From Cyanobium sp. Tous-M-B4 (GTDB taxonomy: Bacteria > Cyanobacteriota > Cyanobacteriia > PCC-6307 > Cyanobiaceae): a DNA stretch of 64,000 nt. Below the pieces are notes generated by a model. It ran no database searches. It was not told the DNA's origin and was given only the letters and a program-made list of their open reading frames with translations. Shown here piece after piece: positions 5,287 through 44,732 of this stretch. Within the stretch, counting starts at the first letter, position 1; the number at the start of each line of letters is the position of its first letter. The position numbers were made by a program, and so were the translations under genes. Location: NCBI RefSeq assembly GCF_024345395.1, contig NZ_JAGQBA010000002.1, positions 496,001 to 560,000 on the forward strand, in the 5' to 3' direction.

Positions 5287-8200
5287 ATGCCCCGCCGCAC
5301 GGACCTAAGGCGCATCCTGCTGCTGGGCTCGGGACCGATCGTGATCGGCCAGGCCTGTGAATTCGATTATTCCGGCACCCAGGCTTGCAAAGCGCTGCGG
5401 GCGGAAGGCTTTGAGGTGGTGTTGGTGAATTCCAACCCGGCCTCGATCATGACCGATCCGGACATGGCGGATCGCACCTACATCGAGCCCCTTACGCCCG
5501 AGGTGGTGGCCCGGGTGATTGAGATCGAGCAGCCCGATGCCCTTCTGCCCACGATGGGCGGCCAGACCGCTCTCAATCTGGCGGTAGCCCTGGCTGAAAA
5601 CGGCACCCTGGAAAAGCACGGGGTGGAGCTGATCGGCGCCAACCTGCAGGCGATCCGCAAGGCGGAAGACCGGCTGCTCTTTAAGGAGGCGATGGAGCGG
5701 ATCGGCGTGGCGGTGTGTCCCTCCGGCATCGCCAACACCCTGGAGGAGGCCGAGCGGGTGGGCGAGGTCATTGGCAGCTACCCCCGCATCATCCGGCCGG
5801 CCTTCACCCTCGGTGGCAGCGGCGGTGGCATCGCCTACAACCCCGAGGAGTTCCGCGCCTTCTGCAAAAGCGGCCTAGAGGCCAGCCCCGTCTCCCAGAT
5901 CCTGGTGGAGCAGTCGCTGCTGGGCTGGAAGGAATTCGAGCTGGAGGTGATGCGCGACAGCGCCGACAACGTGGTGATCGTTTGCAGCATCGAAAACCTC
6001 GATCCGATGGGGGTACATACCGGTGATTCGATCACCGTTGCACCGGCCCAAACCCTCACCGACCGCGAATACCAGCGGCTGCGCGACCAGTCGATCGCGA
6101 TCATTCGCGAGATCGGCGTCGACACCGGCGGCAGCAATATTCAATTTGCGATCAACCCCGCCAACGGCGATGTGGTGGTGATCGAGATGAACCCGCGCGT
6201 ATCGCGCAGCTCGGCGCTGGCTTCGAAGGCCACAGGCTTTCCAATCGCCAAGATCGCCGCCCGCCTGGCGGTGGGCTACACCCTCGACGAAATCGTCAAC
6301 GACATCACCGGTGCCACCCCGGCCTGCTTCGAGCCCACGATTGATTACGTGGTCACGAAGATTCCCCGCTTCGCCTTTGAGAAGTTCCGCGGCAGCCCCG
6401 CATTGCTCACAACTTCAATGAAGTCGGTGGGCGAGGCGATGGCTATCGGTCGCTGCTTCGAGGAGTCGTTCCAAAAGGCGTTGCGCTCCTTAGAAACGGG
6501 CCACGCCGGCTGGGGTTGCGACCGCCCCGATGCCGCAAGTGACCCCACGCTTGCCCCCGATCCCACCGTCCTGGAGCGGGCCCTGCGCACCGCCACGCCT
6601 GAGCGCATTTTTGCCGTGCGCGAGGCGATGCTCGCCGCCCGCAGCGACGACGAGATCCACCAGCTCAGCGCCATCGATCCCTGGTTTTTGGCCAAGCTGC
6701 GCTGCATCCTCGATGCTGAGCAGCGGCTGCTGCGGGGCCGGCAGCTGGAGCAACTCGATGCCGCCGCCCTGCTGGAGCTCAAACAGCTGGGGTTCTCCGA
6801 TCGCCAGATCGCCTGGGCTACTGGTAGCGATGAACTCACGGTGCGGCGCCACCGTCAGGGGTTGGGCATCAATGCCGTGTTCAAAACCGTCGACACCTGT
6901 GCGGCGGAGTTTGCCTCCAGCACCCCGTATCACTACTCCACCTATGAGCGGCCGCTGGAGCGGCTCAACGCCGCCGGTGCGCTCGAGATCGTGCCGCCGG
7001 AAAATGAGGTGCAGCCGGAGAGCCGTCGCAAGGTGATGATCCTGGGTGGTGGGCCAAACCGCATCGGTCAGGGCATCGAATTCGACTATTGCTGCGTGCA
7101 CGCCTCCTTCGCCCTGCAGGCGGAAGGCTTCGCCACCGTGATGGTGAATAGCAACCCGGAGACGGTGTCAACCGATTACGACACCAGTGATCGGTTGTAT
7201 TTCGAGCCGCTCACCCTCGAAGACGTGCTCAACGTGATTGAGGTGGAGCATCCCGAGGGGGTGATCGTGCAGTTCGGTGGCCAAACGCCGCTGAAGCTGG
7301 CGATGCCGCTGCTGCGCTGGCTGGCCTCTCCCGAGGGCCTGGCCACCGGCAGTCGCATCTGGGGCACCTCACCGGAATCAATCGATTCGGCTGAAGACCG
7401 GGAGCAGTTCGAGGCGATCCTGCGCCGGCTGGACATCCGCCAGCCCCGCAACGGCCTGGCCCGCAGTGAGGCTGAGGCTCGGGCCATCGCCGCGCGCGTT
7501 GGCTATCCGGTGGTTGTGCGCCCCAGCTACGTGCTGGGCGGGCGCGCCATGGAGGTCGTCTACGACGAAGCCGAGCTCAACCGTTACATGGTGGAAGCGG
7601 TACAGGTGGAGCCCGACCACCCAGTGCTGATCGACCAATACCTCGATAACGCCATTGAAGTGGATGTGGATGCCCTTTGCGATCGAGATGGGGTGGTGCT
7701 GATTGGCGGTGTGATGGAGCACATCGAACCGGCCGGCATTCATTCGGGCGATTCGGCCTGCTGGCTGCCGTCGGTGAGCCTTAGCGAGGCGGCTCTCGCC
7801 ACGATCCGCGCCTGGAGCCGGGACCTGGCGCTGGCCCTGGGGGTGCGCGGCCTGATCAACCTGCAGTTTGCGGTGCAAATCGACCCTGAGCAGGGCGAGC
7901 GGGTTTTCATCATCGAGGCAAATCCCCGGGCTTCCCGCACCGTGCCCTTCGTGGCTAAGGCCACCGGCGTGCCCCTGGCCAAGGTGGCCAGCCAGCTGAT
8001 GGCCGGCCGCACCCTGGCGGAGCTGGGGCTCACGGCCGAACCCATCCCGCCCCTGCAAACGGTGAAGGAGGCGGTGCTGCCGTTCAAGCGCTTTCCGGGT
8101 TCCGACACCCTGCTGGGTCCGGAGATGCGCAGCACCGGTGAGGTGATGGGCATCGCCTCCACCGCCGGCATGGCCTATGCCAAGGCCGAACTGGCCGCCA

Positions 8201-37904: not shown

Positions 37905-38582
37905 TTAGTTGAGCCGGCCCCATACCTCCAAGTAGCGCTCCTGCCGCGGCGCCACCTGGAGCTGGGCGGCCAGCCCGGCCTGCTCCAGCTGCTGCTGCAC
38001 CTCCTCTGGGGTGAAGGCCGCATGCAGGGAAGCGCGGTAGTCGCGCCGCAGCACCTCGGGCGCTCCTTCCATCTCGGAAACCACCAGCGCCTCCACCGCC
38101 TCGGCGTTATCGGGGCGCCGCAGGTCTTGGACATAAACAAACGCCCCTGGGGAGCCGAGCTGGGTCACCGTCTGCCAGAGCACCGCCGGATCATGCAGGT
38201 GGTGCAACAGGCTGTTGCACACCACCGCTGAGAAGTGGGCTTCGAGTTCGCCTGCGATAGCAAGGGGCAGCAGCGCCTGCTTAAAGCGCAGCCGAGCCGC
38301 CAGATCCGGCGACGCTCCGGCCAGGCGCTCGCGCGCCACCGCCAGCATCCGCGGCGCCCCGTCGATCCCTAAAACCTTTGCAGCAGGCCAGCGAGCGGCC
38401 AGAAGCAAGCTGATGTTGCCCGGGCCGCAGCCCAGATCCACCAAGGCCGTGCCGGGGTCATCACCGCAGAGCTGGGCCAGCCTCTCCACCATCGCCGCAT
38501 CGGAGGTGGCGAAATCGGCCTGGGCATAGGCCAGCACCTGGCCTGCCTTGTCCATCAGCTCCGGCTCCGGAATGCGCTGCAT
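37905..38582 (-). CDS. SAM-dependent class I methyltransferase
   Basis: A 225-residue Rossmann methyltransferase. The SAM-binding glycine loop is [15 protein letters not shown] near residue 49, followed by the acidic ribose-binding site VLGIDGAP and the post-I motif [26 protein letters not shown]. The final part (YLEVWGRLN) matches trans-aconitate or small-molecule methyltransferase-like proteins. Substrate cannot be read. Its start is divergent from nrdJ, 130 bases away. Confidence 0.82.
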
Positions 38583-38712
38583 CGAAATTCAAGATTTCCT
38601 GATCCACTGTGGCGCAGCCTTGCTGGGCAGCGCACTGTCGCTGGTGTCTACCAGATGTTGCACACCCCACCGGTGGCGTTATGGTTCGGCTCACCTTCGG
38701 GCCGTACTGCCT

Positions 38713-41100
38713 GTGACGCTCTCAGCCACGCCCCCTACAGCCGCCAGTCAGAACGCCGAAGCTGCGGCGGCTGAAAAGGCTTTTGCCGCCGCCAGCGGCA
38801 GTCCGGCGGGCGAGGCCCTCGATTTCCCGGCCACCGCCCCTGCTGCCAACCCGGTCTTCTACCGGACCTACAGCCGCAAGACCGAGACCGGCAGGGAAAG
38901 CTGGCACCAAGTAGCTGAGCGCAACCTCGGCGGTCTGAGCAAGCTGGGCAACCTCAGCGATGCGGAGGTGGAGTTGATGCGCCGCATGCAGCAGCAGCAG
39001 AAAGCACTTCCTTCAGGGCGCTGGCTGTGGATCGGCGGCACCGAATGGATCGAGCAACAGCAAAACTTCTCTGGCGCCTACAACTGCACCTCCACCAACC
39101 TGGTGGACTGGGAAGCCTTCGGTCTGATGATGGACCTGGCGATGATGGGCTGCGGCACCGGCGCCATCATCGAGCCCCATCTGATTGGGCGCTTGCCGGC
39201 GGTGCGCAACCGGCTCAGCATCGCCGCTGTGACCGATATCGGTGCCACCCCGGCTGGCCAACGCCAAGAGCACACCAGCCACAGCATCGAGGCCAACCGG
39301 GTTGCCATCAAGGTGGGTGACACCCGCCGCGGCTGGGTGGACAGCTACCAGCTGCTGCTCAATCTCTGCAGCGACGAGCGCTTTGACCCCGCCAGCCCGA
39401 TCGAGATCAGCGTCGATCTCTCCGACGTGCGGCCCGTGGGCGAAACCCTCAAGGGCTTCGGTGGCATGGCCAACCCGGTGAAACTCAAGGACCTTTACGG
39501 CCGCGTGGCCCAGATTCTCAATAAGGCCCAAGGCCGCCAGCTCACCTCGGTGGAGTGCTGCCTGCTGATCGATGAGGCTGCTGTCACGATCGTGGCCGGC
39601 AACATCCGCCGCAGCGCCGGCATGCGCCAGTTCTGCGCCGACGACAACTCCGCCGCCGGAGCGAAGGAGAACCTCTGGCAGCAGGACAGCGAGGGCAACT
39701 GGAGCATCGATCCGGAAAGGGATTCGCTGCGCATGGCCAACCACACCCGGGTCTTCCACAACCGGCCCGACCGGGCCACGGTGCTGGAGGCGGTTGTTAA
39801 GCAGTTCCAGAGCGGTGAGGGCGCGATCCAGTTCGCTCCTGAAGCCATCGCCCGCTCCAACGCCGACCTGCTGACCACCCCAGAGCTGCGCACAGAGTTC
39901 ATCGGCATCTATTGCGACCAAGGCCGCGAGCAAGCTGGCCGCTGGCTCACCACCCACCACCCCGAGATCAGCGCCGCCGAACTGGAGCACCGCTTGGGCC
40001 GCTACGGCCTCAACCCCTGCGGCGAGATCCTCGGCGCCGACTTCCACTGCAACCTGGCTGAAATCCACCTCAACCAGATCGACCCCGCCGATCTGGTGTC
40101 CCAGGAGGAGGCCTTCCGTGCTGCCGGCCTGGCCGTGGCCTGCCTGCTCAACCATCGCTTCGAGGTGGAGCGCTACCGCCAGAGCCGCGCCTGGGATCCG
40201 ATCGTGGGCGTGAGTTTCACCGGCCTATTTGACTTTTTTGTGCACGCCTTTGGCACGCCCTGGCTCACCTGGTGGGAAGCGGGACGGCCCAACACGGCCG
40301 AAGGCCTGGCCTTCAAGGCAAAGGAGGCCGAATTCCTGGGCCGCTGGAAGCAGATCGTCAATACGGCGGTTTGGGACTACTGCGATCGCCACGGCCTGCG
40401 CCGCCCCAACCGCTGCACCACCGTGCAGCCCGCCGGCACCAAGAGCCTGCTCACCGGAGCATCACCTGGCTGGCACCCCCCCAAAGCCCAGCGCTTCATC
40501 CGCCGCATCACCTTCCGCAAGAACGATCCGGTGGCCCTTGCCTGCATGGATTACGGCTACACAATCGTGCCCTCGCAAAGCGATAAGGACGAACAGGGCC
40601 GCCTGCTGGATGATGCGTTTGATCCCCGCTGCACCGAGTGGCTGGTGGAAATTCCCACCGAAGTGAGCTGGGCCAATATCCCAGGTGCCGACGCAGTTGA
40701 GATCAACAACTTCTCAGCTTTGGCTCAATTTGACTTCTACATGCAGGTGCAGAAGCACTACACAGCCCACAACACCTCAGCCACGGTCGAGTTCCGCGAA
40801 AACGAAATTGAACCACTAGCAGATGCAATTTATCAGGCAATCGATCAAGGTGAGGGCTACATCTCTGCTGCCCTATTGGCCCGTTTTGATGCCAATGCCA
40901 CCTTCCCGCGCCTGCCGTTTGAACCAATCGACCACGCCACCTACCTGCGTCTAAACGCTGAGGTGGCATCCCGTCGCAGCACCACTTGCTTCTTCGAAGC
41001 ATTACAGCGCTACGACCGTGGTGAGCTGGTGGAGGCAGGTCCAGCAGGCTGCGATTCAGATAAGTGCCTACTGCCTTTAGCTAAACCGGGCAACAACTAA
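38713..41100 (+). CDS. nrdJ: Class II (B12-dependent) ribonucleotide reductase
   Basis: A 795-residue adenosylcobalamin-dependent ribonucleoside-triphosphate reductase of the monomeric type, converting NTPs to dNTPs. Visible landmarks are CTSTNLVDWEAFGLMMDLAM with the first redox Cys, LNPCGEILGADFHCNLAEI with the catalytic Cys, TVQPAGTKSLLTGASPGWH, and a C-terminal CDSDKC that would re-reduce the active site. No intein interrupts the catalytic motifs. The GTG at 38713 is the best start; the frame opens earlier but those residues lie over the divergent methyltransferase start. No cobalamin riboswitch was recognised in the spacer. Confidence 0.92.
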   Translation: MTLSATPPTAASQNAEAAAAEKAFAAASGSPAGEALDFPATAPAANPVFYRTYSRKTETGRESWHQVAERNLGGLSKLGNLSDAEVELMRRMQQQQKALPSGRWLWIGGTEWIEQQQNFSGAYNCTSTNLVDWEAFGLMMDLAMMGCGTGAIIEPHLIGRLPAVRNRLSIAAVTDIGATPAGQRQEHTSHSIEANRVAIKVGDTRRGWVDSYQLLLNLCSDERFDPASPIEISVDLSDVRPVGETLKGFGGMANPVKLKDLYGRVAQILNKAQGRQLTSVECCLLIDEAAVTIVAGNIRRSAGMRQFCADDNSAAGAKENLWQQDSEGNWSIDPERDSLRMANHTRVFHNRPDRATVLEAVVKQFQSGEGAIQFAPEAIARSNADLLTTPELRTEFIGIYCDQGREQAGRWLTTHHPEISAAELEHRLGRYGLNPCGEILGADFHCNLAEIHLNQIDPADLVSQEEAFRAAGLAVACLLNHRFEVERYRQSRAWDPIVGVSFTGLFDFFVHAFGTPWLTWWEAGRPNTAEGLAFKAKEAEFLGRWKQIVNTAVWDYCDRHGLRRPNRCTTVQPAGTKSLLTGASPGWHPPKAQRFIRRITFRKNDPVALACMDYGYTIVPSQSDKDEQGRLLDDAFDPRCTEWLVEIPTEVSWANIPGADAVEINNFSALAQFDFYMQVQKHYTAHNTSATVEFRENEIEPLADAIYQAIDQGEGYISAALLARFDANATFPRLPFEPIDHATYLRLNAEVASRRSTTCFFEALQRYDRGELVEAGPAGCDSDKCLLPLAKPGNN

Positions 41101-41120: not shown

Positions 41121-41939
41121 CTAAGAGGAGGGGGGATCGGCAATGATATACCGGTCCCTACCTGTTTGTTTAGAGATAAGCAAAGCGGCATCTGCCCTTT
41201 TATAGGTGTCTGTGTAGACCTCGCCAGGGGCACGCTCTGCTACTCCGATGCTTATCGTAGCTTGCAGCATATCTTCGCCCACCCGGATACGCAGGGCGCG
41301 TGTATTGGCCAGCATGCGATCAGCAATATCGGATGCTGTCGCTAGATCAGCATTAACGAGCAGGGCGAGAAATTCTTCGCCGCCCCAGCGGCCACAAGAG
41401 TCGTATTCTCTAAGGCTATGGGTAAAGGAATTGGCGAGCTCGATTAGCACCTGATCGCCTACATCATGGCCGTAAACATCATTGAAAAGCTTAAAGCGAT
41501 CCACGTCCATGGTGAGCAGGGAGTAGGTGCCTTCTTCCCTGGCTAGTCGCTCATCCTCAATTCGGCATCGCTCTGACATCAGGCGGCGATTTGGGATAGA
41601 GGTAAGTAAATCATGGGTGGAAGCTTCCCTTAGGGCCTTATTGAGGTCGTTCAGCATCGACTGGTAGCGATCTGAAATGCTGATTGCACGCTCAAGTGTG
41701 CGGATCTGACGGTCGTAGCGGCGTGAGAGGTTGCGCACCCGTTCTTGGACACCGCTTTGATAGCGATCCGAAATCTGGGTAATACGCTCTAACCTGGAAA
41801 CTTGCTGCCCCATCCTCTCCATCATTTCGGCTAAAGCTTCCCGCAAGGGATGGCCCAGGTAAGCCTCGTTTGCCAATAATTCTGCTACTCGATCGTCGAG
41901 CTCATCAGAGGGTTTGGAGTCGCCAGAATAAGGAGTCAT
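41121..41939 (-). CDS. siaD: SiaD-like diguanylate cyclase (GGDEF)
   Basis: A 272-residue protein that makes c-di-GMP from two GTP. The N-terminal 110 residues are polar and coiled-coil-like (RVRNLSRRYDRQIRTLERAIS, with a repeated ISDRYQS). The C-terminal GGDEF domain has DLLTSIPNRR, the active site CGRWGGEEF and an inhibitory-site motif RxxD five residues before it (REYD). There is no sensor or membrane segment, as in Pseudomonas SiaD, whose cyclase needs SiaC binding to a coiled coil. It is the last gene of a four-gene run with SiaA-, SiaB- and SiaC-like proteins, 12 bases after siaC. A stop-to-stop gap of 20 bases separates it from the convergent nrdJ. Confidence 0.88.
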   Translation of the reverse strand: MTPYSGDSKPSDELDDRVAELLANEAYLGHPLREALAEMMERMGQQVSRLERITQISDRYQSGVQERVRNLSRRYDRQIRTLERAISISDRYQSMLNDLNKALREASTHDLLTSIPNRRLMSERCRIEDERLAREEGTYSLLTMDVDRFKLFNDVYGHDVGDQVLIELANSFTHSLREYDSCGRWGGEEFLALLVNADLATASDIADRMLANTRALRIRVGEDMLQATISIGVAERAPGEVYTDTYKRADAALLISKQTGRDRYIIADPPSS

Positions 41940-41951
41940 GCTAGAGGGTCC

Positions 41952-42350
41952 TTAGACCACAACGGCCTCAATTGAAAAATCGAAAGTATAGTCTTCTTTG
42001 AATTCCTCGCCCAGCTCTGCGGAACGGGGATTGCGACTATCGTAAAACCAGCATACTGCAATTTGCTTGCCTTGATCGGCGGCATTTTGTAGCCGATCGA
42101 ATATGTCTATCATCGCCCTAATGCTACTTGTATTTAAGTAATTCAGTCTTAGCTCGATTTTTAGTGGTTGGGACCCAGAATGCAAAAAATCTTCAACCCA
42201 GCCAATGATATTGTCGAAAATTTCATAGGTGTTTTCCGGATAGGACTCGCCAGTCATCACCAGCACTCCGGTGTCCCATTCAGCCGTGACTGCAGGCGTG
42301 GACTGGGTTGGGGCCAGGCTCAGGTTTTTCTGGAATTCAGTGTTTGTCAT
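41952..42350 (-). CDS. siaC: SiaC-like partner-switch protein (DUF1987)
   Basis: A 132-residue member of the SiaC/DUF1987 family. In Pseudomonas aeruginosa SiaC, unphosphorylated, binds and activates the cyclase SiaD, and SiaB phosphorylates a Thr to stop it. The conserved site appears here as YLNTSSIRAM, with Thr74 in the place of the phosphorylated Thr. An N-terminal VLVMTGESYPENTYEIFD strand-helix segment and the end FDFSIEAVVV are also family-like. It starts 6 bases after siaB. Confidence 0.85.
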   Translation of the reverse strand: MTNTEFQKNLSLAPTQSTPAVTAEWDTGVLVMTGESYPENTYEIFDNIIGWVEDFLHSGSQPLKIELRLNYLNTSSIRAMIDIFDRLQNAADQGKQIAVCWFYDSRNPRSAELGEEFKEDYTFDFSIEAVVV

Positions 42351-42356
42351 GGCCGT

Positions 42357-42914
42357 TCAGATTGTTGCGCGTAGCGTGAAGAAGGCTTTGCCACCACCGA
42401 GCTCATCCAAGCTGGCCTGCAATGGCTCAGATGACTTGCGTGCAATATCAATCAGGCCGAGGCCCGCACCAGTTACCACACCTTCTTCACGGGGCTTGCG
42501 CAGTTGCTCTTTGTAGAGCGACTTGAGCTCTACCTTATCAAGCCTCCCCAAGGCCTCGACCCGATCCAATAGATGCTGGCCATCAGCAGTATCAACCATA
42601 TTTCCTGCCGAAACTACATATTTATCAACTCCAGTCTCTGCAATTACAACCGTAGCAGTGGCCTCTAGGTCACTGTAGGAGCGATTGGATGTATAGTGAC
42701 GAATATTCTGGCTCATCTTGATATAAACGCTAAAAACATCCATTGCTGAAGACATGCAATCTCTTGTTGTCTCGATGTGCTCCTTCAGCGCCACCCCAAT
42801 TTCGCCAATCAAACTTCTTGAAGTGGGGCCGTTAAAGCAGATCAAAATACGCTCATGCGTGAAGAAATCCCTAAGAGAGGAAAGGCTCCGGCTGGTTGTA
42901 AGGGCGCTGTCCAT
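42357..42914 (-). CDS. siaB: SiaB-family protein kinase
   Basis: A 185-residue protein of the SiaB/DUF6272 family, which phosphorylates SiaC in the studied Pseudomonas system. The sequence has ICFNGPTSRSLIGEIGVALK, a middle SVYIKMSQNIRHYTSNRSYS and the glycine-rich GVVTGAGLGLIDIARKSS resembling the G-box of GHKL ATP-binding folds. No membrane helix is seen. It is 60 bases after the phosphatase gene and 6 bases before siaC. Confidence 0.85.
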   Translation of the reverse strand: MDSALTTSRSLSSLRDFFTHERILICFNGPTSRSLIGEIGVALKEHIETTRDCMSSAMDVFSVYIKMSQNIRHYTSNRSYSDLEATATVVIAETGVDKYVVSAGNMVDTADGQHLLDRVEALGRLDKVELKSLYKEQLRKPREEGVVTGAGLGLIDIARKSSEPLQASLDELGGGKAFFTLRATI

Positions 42915-42974
42915 GGGCTTAATGCTTATTGCAATGTTAACACCAGAGCCTGATCGGGCTGGAACAGGGTCACG

Positions 42975-44144
42975 TTAGTTAAATCGGAAGGACAACATGG
43001 TGATGTCATCGCGTTGGGGGTGATCCCCTTGGAATTCCTGCAATGCCCTAGTAAGAGCCTGGTGTTGGTCGTCAAGGGACTTGGTTGCATGCTCAAGCAG
43101 CCACTGGGAAAATCGATCGCTGCCCAGTCCAAATCCATGCTCCCCTCCAGCCTGATCTAAATATCCATCTGTTGTGAGGTAATAGGTGAAGCCAGGAAGA
43201 AGCGGAACGTCGTGATCGTGATATGCGCCGGTGCGGCGGTCCCAGAGACTGCGATTGTCCCCTTTGACGTATTCAACTGTGTTGCCATCGCTCCAGTAAA
43301 GCCAGATCTTGGCTCCTGCAAAGCGCAGCAGTTGGGCGTGTGCATCAATCATGACTAGGCCTACATCCATTGTGGTGGCAATGGCACGAGAGACTTGGGC
43401 TTCGCTGAGAATGCTGTGCATGCCTTCATTGGTGGCTTGCAGCACCTCGGCTGGAGAGGCAATGCCATGCATCTGTATCGACCGATCGATGCCGGCTCGA
43501 GCGAGCATGGTCATCATGGCTCCGGATACTCCGTGGCCTGCGCAGTCGGCTACGCCCGCCAAGCAACGCCCACCTTCCTCGTGGAACACGTAGTAATCGC
43601 CGCCAACGGTGTCGCGGGGCTGCCACAGGATGAAGTGATCCTTGCCGAAGCGTTCTTTTAGCTGACGATTTGGCAGAATCGACTTCTGCAGCAGTGCTGC
43701 ATATTGAATCGAATCATCCACCTGTTTTGTTACATCCTTAAGGCGCTGATGGGCTGAATCGACCATGTCATAGGCATGGCGCTGGCGAACTAAGACGGAG
43801 TTAAAGGCTTCCGTGAGGCGACCGATCTCGTCACTACCCCTTACGGTCAGCAGTTCGTTGGAATCGTCGGATGATATGGAATAGGCTTGACGAACCAAGC
43901 GGCGCAGGGGTTCAACTACGCGCAGCGACAATATGCGATAGGAAATTGTGACCCCTATTGCCAATAAGATTGCCAGAAAGATGGTGGTTTGTGACTGCAT
44001 CTGGCTGGAGCTGGGATCGTTCAGCAGCGTCGAAGCTGAATAGATCAAATAGGCCAGCACAATGCCATTGAGAATAGCGAGGAGCAAAAATATCTGCTGA
44101 ATCGACAGGACACGCTTTTTCCGCTTAGCTGCCTCTACCGTCAT
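42975..44144 (-). CDS. siaA: SiaA-like membrane PP2C phosphatase
   Basis: A 389-residue membrane protein with two helices (about residues 14-36 and 54-72) separated by only about 18 residues, then a HAMP region (VVEPLRRLVRQAYSI), a short helical linker and a SpoIIE/PP2C phosphatase domain. Metal-binding residues are visible in GGDYYVF, ADCAGHGVSGAMM and RDDITML. In the Pseudomonas operon SiaA dephosphorylates SiaC, but that protein carries a large periplasmic sensor which is missing here. I chose the ATG at 44144; a GTG at 44159 is in frame. First gene of the run. Confidence 0.85.
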   Translation of the reverse strand: MTVEAAKRKKRVLSIQQIFLLLAILNGIVLAYLIYSASTLLNDPSSSQMQSQTTIFLAILLAIGVTISYRILSLRVVEPLRRLVRQAYSISSDDSNELLTVRGSDEIGRLTEAFNSVLVRQRHAYDMVDSAHQRLKDVTKQVDDSIQYAALLQKSILPNRQLKERFGKDHFILWQPRDTVGGDYYVFHEEGGRCLAGVADCAGHGVSGAMMTMLARAGIDRSIQMHGIASPAEVLQATNEGMHSILSEAQVSRAIATTMDVGLVMIDAHAQLLRFAGAKIWLYWSDGNTVEYVKGDNRSLWDRRTGAYHDHDVPLLPGFTYYLTTDGYLDQAGGEHGFGLGSDRFSQWLLEHATKSLDDQHQALTRALQEFQGDHPQRDDITMLSFRFN

Positions 44145-44280
44145 CCAGCCTCTTAGCACCCATTTTAAGTTTCATCTTAGTCAGGGATGGCCCGGAAAAC
44201 TGCGCCCTCTCAGAAAATTCTCAGACGGCCCCCCTCGTGGGATTATGGAAGAGGTGGCGGCATTGCCGCACCAACCCTCT

Positions 44281-44365
44281 GGAGAGGTGGTCGAGTGGTT
44301 GATGGCTCTGGTCTTGAAAACCAGCGAAGTGAAAGCTTCCGCGGGTTCGAATCCCGCCCTCTCCG
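44281..44365 (+). tRNA. tRNA-Ser (UGA)
   Basis: An 85-nt class II tRNA with acceptor GGAGAGG/CCTCTCC, discriminator G, anticodon stem CTGGT/ACCAG with loop CTTGAAA (anticodon TGA), a variable arm (GCGAAGTGAAAGCTTCCGC region) and T arm GCGGGTTCGAATCCCGC. The CCA is not encoded. It is transcribed away from the sia operon. Confidence 0.95.
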
Positions 44366-44386
44366 TTCCAATGACATCAGCAGAAC

Positions 44387-44414: not shown

Positions 44415-44448
44415 TCTGGCATCAGTCTTGATCTGGCATCAGTCCTGA
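44415..44448 (+). repeat. 17-bp tandem direct repeat
   Basis: Two adjacent copies of tctggcatcagtcYtga (44415-44431, 44432-44448) with one mismatch, directly after the hairpin downstream of tRNA-Ser. The second copy contains the stop of the minus-strand zinc-ribbon ORF. Confidence 0.85.
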
Positions 44449-44732
44449 AGGTGGCTGAAGGGGCGCATTGCTGCGGCGGGCTCTGCGCAGGCGCGGTTGA
44501 GCTCCCTTTCGAGATTGATTATGCGCTTCTCCCTTAGGCAGTATTTGCAGCCGCCGGTGGTTTGGAGGTGCTTCTCGGGGGTGATGGAAATCTCTTTGAC
44601 TGGATGGCTATTGCAGCGAATCTTGATGGGGGTCTTGTAGCTCTTGTAGAGGATGGCTGCGTAGTCGTATTGATCGCCAAAACGGGATCGGGCCCTTGCC
44701 AAAAACAGTTCACGACTGATTGGGTTGCCCAT
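44439..44732 (-). CDS. Phage/virus-type zinc-ribbon protein
   Basis: A 97-residue protein matching a zinc-ribbon-like module common in phage and algal-virus proteins and in homing-endonuclease-linked ORFs: FLARARSRFGDQYDYAAILY, then PIKIRCNSH, then PEKHLQTTGGCKYC. Paired Cys and His residues (C..H and CKYC) suggest one metal ion. No nuclease domain is present, so it may be a remnant or a stand-alone DNA-binding protein. Its position just after tRNA-Ser is a usual landing site for mobile DNA. Confidence 0.65.
   Translation of the reverse strand: MGNPISRELFLARARSRFGDQYDYAAILYKSYKTPIKIRCNSHPVKEISITPEKHLQTTGGCKYCLREKRIINLERELNRACAEPAAAMRPFSHLQD

Follow-up and report, generated by a model that had tools for sequence, protein, structure and literature searches.

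A siaABCD-type operon in Cyanobium sp. Tous-M-B4 encodes a SiaA without a periplasmic domain

Introduction

The SiaABCD partner switch has, in the literature that we searched, been studied mainly in Pseudomonas aeruginosa (PMC7647112, PMC8457831, PMC12834913), and the consulted parts of these papers propose the availability of carbon, stress from surfactants and perturbation of the membrane as signals for its membrane phosphatase SiaA (PMC7647112, PMC12834913). Related logic is found in HsbA/HsbD of P. aeruginosa and BgrV/BgrR of Sinorhizobium meliloti, in which a STAS-type partner switch also sets the activity of a diguanylate cyclase (PMC8457831, PMC7647112), in these cases, as the papers describe them, through other STAS proteins and cyclases. 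Another parallel is the thermosensor DesK of Bacillus subtilis, which reads the state of the membrane and for which polar residues of the first transmembrane helix (TM1) are important (PMC12834913, in the part consulted); DesK, however, is a sensor kinase, and the likeness is one of mechanism, with no homology claimed. Here we describe a siaABCD-type operon in a 64,000-nucleotide stretch of Cyanobium sp. Tous-M-B4 (contig NZ_JAGQBA010000002.1, positions 496,001 to 560,000; hereafter the window), which probably encodes a partner switch of this kind in an oxygenic phototroph. The locus shares with P. aeruginosa SiaABCD the gene order, the four protein families, the metal residues of the PP2C domain, the phospho-threonine motif of SiaC, a SiaD stalk with two SiaC sites and the GGEEF and RxxD motifs, and differs in that the window SiaA has no periplasmic part. 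It can be regarded as a natural experiment in which the outside sensor is gone and the other parts of the switch persist.

A literature search by title and start of abstract, with most subscription journals outside its scope, found no description of siaABCD in cyanobacteria, and one paper, in the part accessible, cites SiaABCD as a case in which PP2C and cyclic di-GMP (c-di-GMP) systems have merged, without using the word cyanobacteria (PMC9239204). Within the literature searched, the sensor-less form of SiaA and the chromosomal slot shared by its operons were likewise not found described and are apparently new.

The window encodes a SiaABCD module

The original prediction from this DNA, of four contiguous siaABCD-like genes on the minus strand, is confirmed by the open reading frames, Pfam and NCBIfam. 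The operon spans positions 41121-44144 of the window on a single strand and consists of siaA (42975-44144; 389 amino acids from its ATG), siaB (42357-42914; 185 amino acids), siaC (41952-42350; 132 amino acids) and siaD (41121-41939; 272 amino acids), separated by 60, 6 and 12 bp, respectively; contiguity of the four genes in the order A, B, C, D on one strand is what we take to define a SiaABCD module. All four frames are open and the active sites are intact. An in-frame GTG at 44159 would extend SiaA to 394 amino acids, and the ATG lies where the open frame begins in the close relative L069; residue numbers counted from the GTG exceed those counted from the ATG by five. Promoter and terminator scans at the operon gave signals no greater than those in shuffled sequences.

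Gene content, order, protein families, catalytic and contact residues and sensor architecture could all be established directly. By Pfam, SiaA carries a HAMP and a SpoIIE-type PP2C phosphatase domain behind a two-helix membrane anchor, SiaB is a DUF6272 protein (SiaB-family protein kinase), SiaC is a SiaC-family phosphoprotein (PF09345), and SiaD joins a helical stalk to a GGDEF diguanylate cyclase domain. Profile searches had been proposed as a check on the assignment of SiaB and SiaC, and both proteins exceed the curated cut-offs of their NCBIfam equivalogs (SiaB, 244.3 bits against a cut-off of 225 for NF038264; SiaC, 180.2 against 150 for NF038265), with SiaD narrowly passing its own (296.3 against 290 for NF038266). 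SiaA remains far below the cut-off of NF038263 (425.6 bits vs. 700) because the ~280-residue periplasmic part is absent and only profile positions 308-658 are matched; two more cyanobacterial SiaAs behave similarly, with 412.4 and 440.1 bits. The description as a siaABCD-like operon stands, but an extension to the same sensor would not, given the SiaA score. The profile matches of the four proteins, with E-values from 1e-36 to 1e-127, are far past chance, and since three of the four pass NCBI naming models, the sia genes are probably labelled already in databases.

Structural comparisons lead to the same families. In sequence, the solved structure closest to SiaA is 6k4e, those closest to SiaC are 6k4f and 6kko chain C, and that closest to SiaD is 7e6g, while the sole match of SiaB in the PDB is 6kko chain A; 6kko and 6k4f we take to be SiaB and SiaC of P. 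aeruginosa. AlphaFold2 models of SiaA and SiaD (mean predicted local distance difference test scores of 80.8 and 87.9) have as their top Foldseek matches 6k4e, the PP2C domain of P. aeruginosa SiaA, and 7e6g, SiaD with SiaC from the same organism. In the SiaD model the stalk is a single long helix comprising residues 31-108.

SiaA lacks a periplasmic domain in every complete cyanobacterial copy compared

In SiaA, TM1 (44037-44105, minus strand; residues 19-41, GTG numbering as for the residues named below) and TM2 (43929-43985, minus strand; residues 59-77) are separated by a loop of only 17 residues by hydropathy (42-58), and the Pfam HAMP domain follows at 43791-43931 on the same strand. The AlphaFold2 model places helices at residues 15-42 and 44-92 in ATG numbering. 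For comparison we used the best 80 of 388 relatives from a scan of named genomes, 23 of them cyanobacterial (Cyanobium, Synechococcus, Aphanothece, Vulcanococcus or uncultured, many of which apparently recur in the family search described below) and 57 proteobacterial; chosen as the most similar, they are an uneven sample of the Proteobacteria. That SiaA is nearly devoid of a periplasmic part had been noticed for the window protein, and the feature extends to all of the cyanobacterial set compared: of 24 SiaAs (the window protein plus 23), 22 are complete at the N-terminus, and in each of these a stretch of 12-23 residues separates two predicted membrane helices. In 54 of the 56 proteobacterial SiaAs, by contrast, 265-288 residues lie between the membrane helices, a single helix being called in each of the remaining two (L135, cut by its contig, and L098). 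The periplasmic part of three proteobacterial SiaAs that were scanned resembles dCache_1, below the Pfam cut-off (E 2e-11, 1e-7 and 3e-5).

We also scored two candidates per genome at the equivalog threshold in a sample of 398 proteobacterial genomes centred on a known carrier. Eight SiaAs exceed the cut-off, all of them covering almost the entire profile (1-657 or 1-658 of 658), and the highest match below it (308 bits) lies under the score of the window SiaA. A short SiaA of the cyanobacterial type was not found among the candidates scored, two per genome, and one may still exist among the PP2C proteins with lower scores, of which some are short. The possibility that the sensory half was borrowed within the same genome was considered and rejected, the N-terminal 128 residues of SiaA matching only themselves (next best E 0.04).

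Lacking a dCache-like periplasmic domain, the cyanobacterial SiaA most likely takes its cue from the membrane or the cytosol, which would make the question of its signal directly testable. Among 21 SiaAs from cyanobacteria that share less than 85% identity, selected from 48 rows, the invariant positions number 6 of 23 in TM1, none of 17 in the loop, 2 of 19 in TM2, 8 of 46 in the HAMP domain, 2 of 27 in the linker and 71 of 244 in the PP2C domain. The invariant residues of TM1 are I20, Q21, F24, N31, L35 and L38. Whereas TM1 of most of the 56 proteobacterial rows starts with a GLRxKS-like motif, the cyanobacterial helix starts with S/T-I-Q..F and carries the invariant Asn. According to the parts of PMC12834913 available to us, R8, K10 and S11 of SiaA have been proposed to form a membrane sensor akin to the "sunken buoy" of DesK, SiaA has been proposed to sense membrane perturbation, and a chimera with the first 336 residues of SiaA swapped did not sustain the high biofilm level seen at room temperature. 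The spacing of the GLRxKS-like motif fits R8, K10 and S11, and the cyanobacterial polar residues at this place differ. A different set of conserved polar residues in TM1 is consistent with an input that is read in the membrane, with a passive anchor or contact with a partner helix as the alternatives.

We tentatively suggest, as one possible reading, that SiaA of picocyanobacteria is a naturally minimal sensor of membrane state, in which two helices would act, much as in DesK, as a thermometer or fluidity gauge and pass their reading to a PP2C phosphatase and hence to c-di-GMP. Its operon would have entered the family once, with the periplasmic sensor gone and TM1 rebuilt around Ile-Gln..Phe and a buried Asn. 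If true, sensing of membrane perturbation by SiaA could be tested without a confounding periplasmic domain. Two other explanations accept the switch and dispute only how SiaA is instructed. SiaA could be a constitutive phosphatase that is merely tethered to the membrane, with the signal entering via SiaB (e.g. ATP or a ligand) or via expression of the operon. The Pfam scan of SiaA, which found no sensor domain other than HAMP, fits this, as does the balance of SiaB and SiaA on one SiaC site in P. aeruginosa, which could place control on the kinase side (PMC7647112, in the part consulted); the invariance of TM1 relative to the loop and the HAMP domain, however, is something a passive anchor has no obvious need for, and we regard a constitutive SiaA as rather unlikely. 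It is more doubtful that the helices hear a separate membrane or periplasmic partner that replaces the missing domain. The invariant Gln21 and Asn31 could equally well serve such a helix-helix contact, but comparison of the open reading frames around the operon revealed no partner gene adjoining it in all loci, a search that did not extend elsewhere in the genome.

Catalytic and contact residues of the switch

The PP2C domain of SiaA (42981-43574, minus strand, by Pfam) retains all eight active-site positions compared. In a gap-free alignment to 6k4e with constant offset, D457, D474, G477, D534, D600, G601, D604 and D653 of P. aeruginosa SiaA, as named in the part of PMC7647112 consulted, are the same residues in the window protein. 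The NTSS site of SiaC and the intact GGEEF and RxxD motifs of SiaD, all three part of the original prediction, are found at SiaC residues 73-76 and SiaD residues 186-190 (41370-41384) and 177-180 (REYD, an inhibitory site; 41400-41411), both on the minus strand. SiaC Thr74 (codon at 42129-42131, minus strand) aligns with Thr68, the phospho-acceptor of P. aeruginosa SiaC.

Contact residues between SiaC and SiaD of P. aeruginosa are listed in PMC8457831, the accessible part of which also reports that a triple mutant of the Asn-Thr-Ser triad of SiaC is unable to bind SiaD. This triad is identical in the window and P. aeruginosa proteins, and 12 of the 14 SiaC contacts tested are the same, the two exceptions (D29E and M75I) being common to all 24 cyanobacterial SiaC rows. 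Asn67 and Ser69 do not vary in those rows, and Thr68 is present in 23, the one deviation coming from a broken copy (L073, below). The stalk of SiaD displays two ISDRYQ motifs as SiaC-binding sites, a distal one (41757-41774, minus strand; S57 and Q61) and a proximal one (41661-41678, minus strand; S89 and Q93), with Ser and Gln kept in both. At the distal site S50, D51 and Q54 of P. aeruginosa are conserved and G52 is replaced by Arg, as in the proximal site; of the 13 proximal contacts tested, eight are identical. Ser82 and Gln86 are kept in all 24 cyanobacterial SiaD rows, a set that does not include L049, and at least one intact stalk site is present in each of 17 cyanobacterial SiaD rows. 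To judge from these residues, the SiaC-SiaD contacts appear largely retained in the window pair. Together with the profile matches of SiaB and SiaC, this means that neither of the two conditions named as refuting the original reading is seen in the sequences, which at this level support it.

In the mechanism that we propose, SiaB would phosphorylate SiaC at Thr74 and the PP2C domain of SiaA would take the phosphate off again. Unphosphorylated SiaC would then bind both ISDRYQ motifs of the SiaD stalk and turn on the synthesis of c-di-GMP, which may feed back via the RxxD site, and a membrane or cytosolic cue would set the phosphatase through the conserved TM1 and the HAMP domain. Which way phosphorylation acts, that SiaD is activated and that the output lies in aggregation or biofilm formation are carried over from P. 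aeruginosa; for the output we infer by analogy also from work on c-di-GMP in other cyanobacteria, as reviewed in the consulted parts of PMC4284465 and PMC10117731. The genome encodes 18 GGDEF and 9 EAL domains, 3 PilZ domains over the cut-off plus one below it, and one marginal MshEN domain, and with so many GGDEF domains SiaD is one of many possible sources of c-di-GMP.

Distribution and integrity of the operon

A match to SiaC is present in 29 of 300 genomes of the window's family, the window's own included, and in 6 of 59 genera; all 29 carriers belong to the 197 genomes with a completeness of at least 90% and a contamination of no more than 5%. In a phylum-wide sample of 386 genomes, the five strong SiaC matches (at least 120 bits) all fall within this family, and two further genomes gave weak matches of 20.6-24.5 bits. 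A survey for the same gene order, as had been suggested, found A, B, C, D in each of the 28 further members of the family that match SiaC. No broken frame was seen in 26 of these 28 copies, the siaA of L054 being cut by a contig end, although their proteins are only 46 to 89% identical to those of the window. A viral and a plasmid origin of the operon were considered and rejected: when viral contigs were scanned with the SiaC alignment, 73 pattern matches but no relative emerged, and among 19 plasmid records, none named as a cyanobacterium, identity to the window SiaC does not exceed 36.2%.

Both remaining copies have visible lesions. In L061, which is the same as L073 (contig JAIYAQ010000012.1, a metagenome-assembled Cyanobium genome), siaA is in pieces, siaC is shortened and the position of Thr74 reads Ala; this may be due to an assembly error. 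In L065, siaC is split across two frames at ~5850-6310, by decay or sequencing error.

Taken together, the comparisons suggest that the window operon, judged as a whole, is quite probably a working SiaABCD switch. Several points weigh against this. Carriers are a minority in the family and in the window's genus (3 of 16 genomes), so the switch is dispensable, and two of the 28 other copies (L061 and L065) are broken. Five of the 13 proximal SiaD contacts differ from P. aeruginosa (R74T, K77R, V78A, R80S and R90N), and in some relatives a single SiaC site is left on the stalk, L071, L065, L062, L082 and L063 having lost the distal motif and L049 the proximal one. On the SiaC side, single N67A, T68A or S69A mutants still restored biofilm formation in P. 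aeruginosa (PMC8457831, in the part consulted), so that one conserved residue alone proves little. Finally, ComFB, a family of c-di-GMP receptors in cyanobacteria, was not found in this genome.

The erosion of one stalk site, together with the resemblance of SiaC to anti-sigma-factor antagonists (PMC7647112, in the part consulted), could suggest that SiaC regulates something other than SiaD here, such as a sigma-factor circuit, with SiaD as a passenger. Since every one of the 17 SiaD rows retains a stalk site, most contacts are kept and siaD stays within the operon in all 28 loci, we consider this very unlikely. That the operon is a decaying relic of horizontal transfer, as its patchiness within the genus, the empty sites in close relatives and the two broken copies might hint, is hardly credible in view of the open frames and intact active sites in the window and the scarcity of broken frames among copies that have diverged so far.

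A shared chromosomal slot

On the siaD side the operon is flanked by a convergent gene for a B12-dependent ribonucleotide reductase (38548-41100, plus strand; true start uncertain), presumably nrdJ, and on the siaA side by a tRNA-Ser(UGA) gene (44280-44366, plus strand), which forms the other edge of the slot. The reductase gene is found at the same side in 24 of the 28 family loci, and the tRNA gene in 27, up to ~2.7 kb away, the contig being short in the 28th. In members of the genus without a SiaC match, tRNA-Ser lies downstream of the reductase gene in 10 of 11 loci fetched, within ~70 bp in seven and at ~0.6-1 kb in three, compared to a distance of ~3.2 kb in the window. For L152, the eleventh locus, no tRNA-Ser was found within 1.5 kb of the reductase gene. 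The conserved flanks in carriers and the short distance in non-carriers indicate a slot that is shared across the family and empty in near relatives, which would make it a clean test case for the circumstances in which picocyanobacteria require the switch.

In a tree of the concatenated conserved parts of the Sia proteins (81 rows, 824 columns, quick search), the 24 cyanobacterial operons fall on one side of a branch with an SH-like approximate likelihood ratio test value of 100; as the tree is unrooted, a proteobacterial origin would rest on the distribution alone. A tree of the reductase (36 rows) requires three changes in the presence or absence of the operon and places the window among non-carriers. 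The shared slot is most simply explained by one old acquisition followed by repeated loss, although the operon may also have been reacquired by recombination through its flanks. Relative to the close non-carriers L150-L152, the reductase gene of the window is 89-91% identical at its 3' end and mostly 94-98% identical before it, a contrast too small to separate reacquisition from loss. Insertion by an integrase at the tRNA was rejected: the operon is located 5' of tRNA-Ser, and the five flank proteins of the window that were scanned, out of a larger number of flank frames, include no integrase.

Two reductase matches occur in one genome with 3% contamination (G214, contigs C35 and C120; L157 and L163). 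One is beside a sia operon; the other is 98% identical to the window gene and is followed by tRNA-Ser without an operon, and possibly derives from a contaminating relative. Beside the tRNA-Ser of the window is a 97-residue open frame (44439-44732, minus strand) with no Pfam match. Across the loci, clusters of open reading frames that recur on the siaD side comprise the reductase, a methyltransferase (15 loci) and release factor 3 (13 loci). Those on the siaA side are confined wholly or mostly to one genus and comprise the clusters c8 (10 loci), c9 (9 loci; the one member run against Pfam gave no match) and c10 (6 loci) as well as a sodium/calcium-exchanger-like cluster, found in 12 of the 28 family loci and in one genus, a member of which lies between siaA and tRNA-Ser in L044 (8430-9599).

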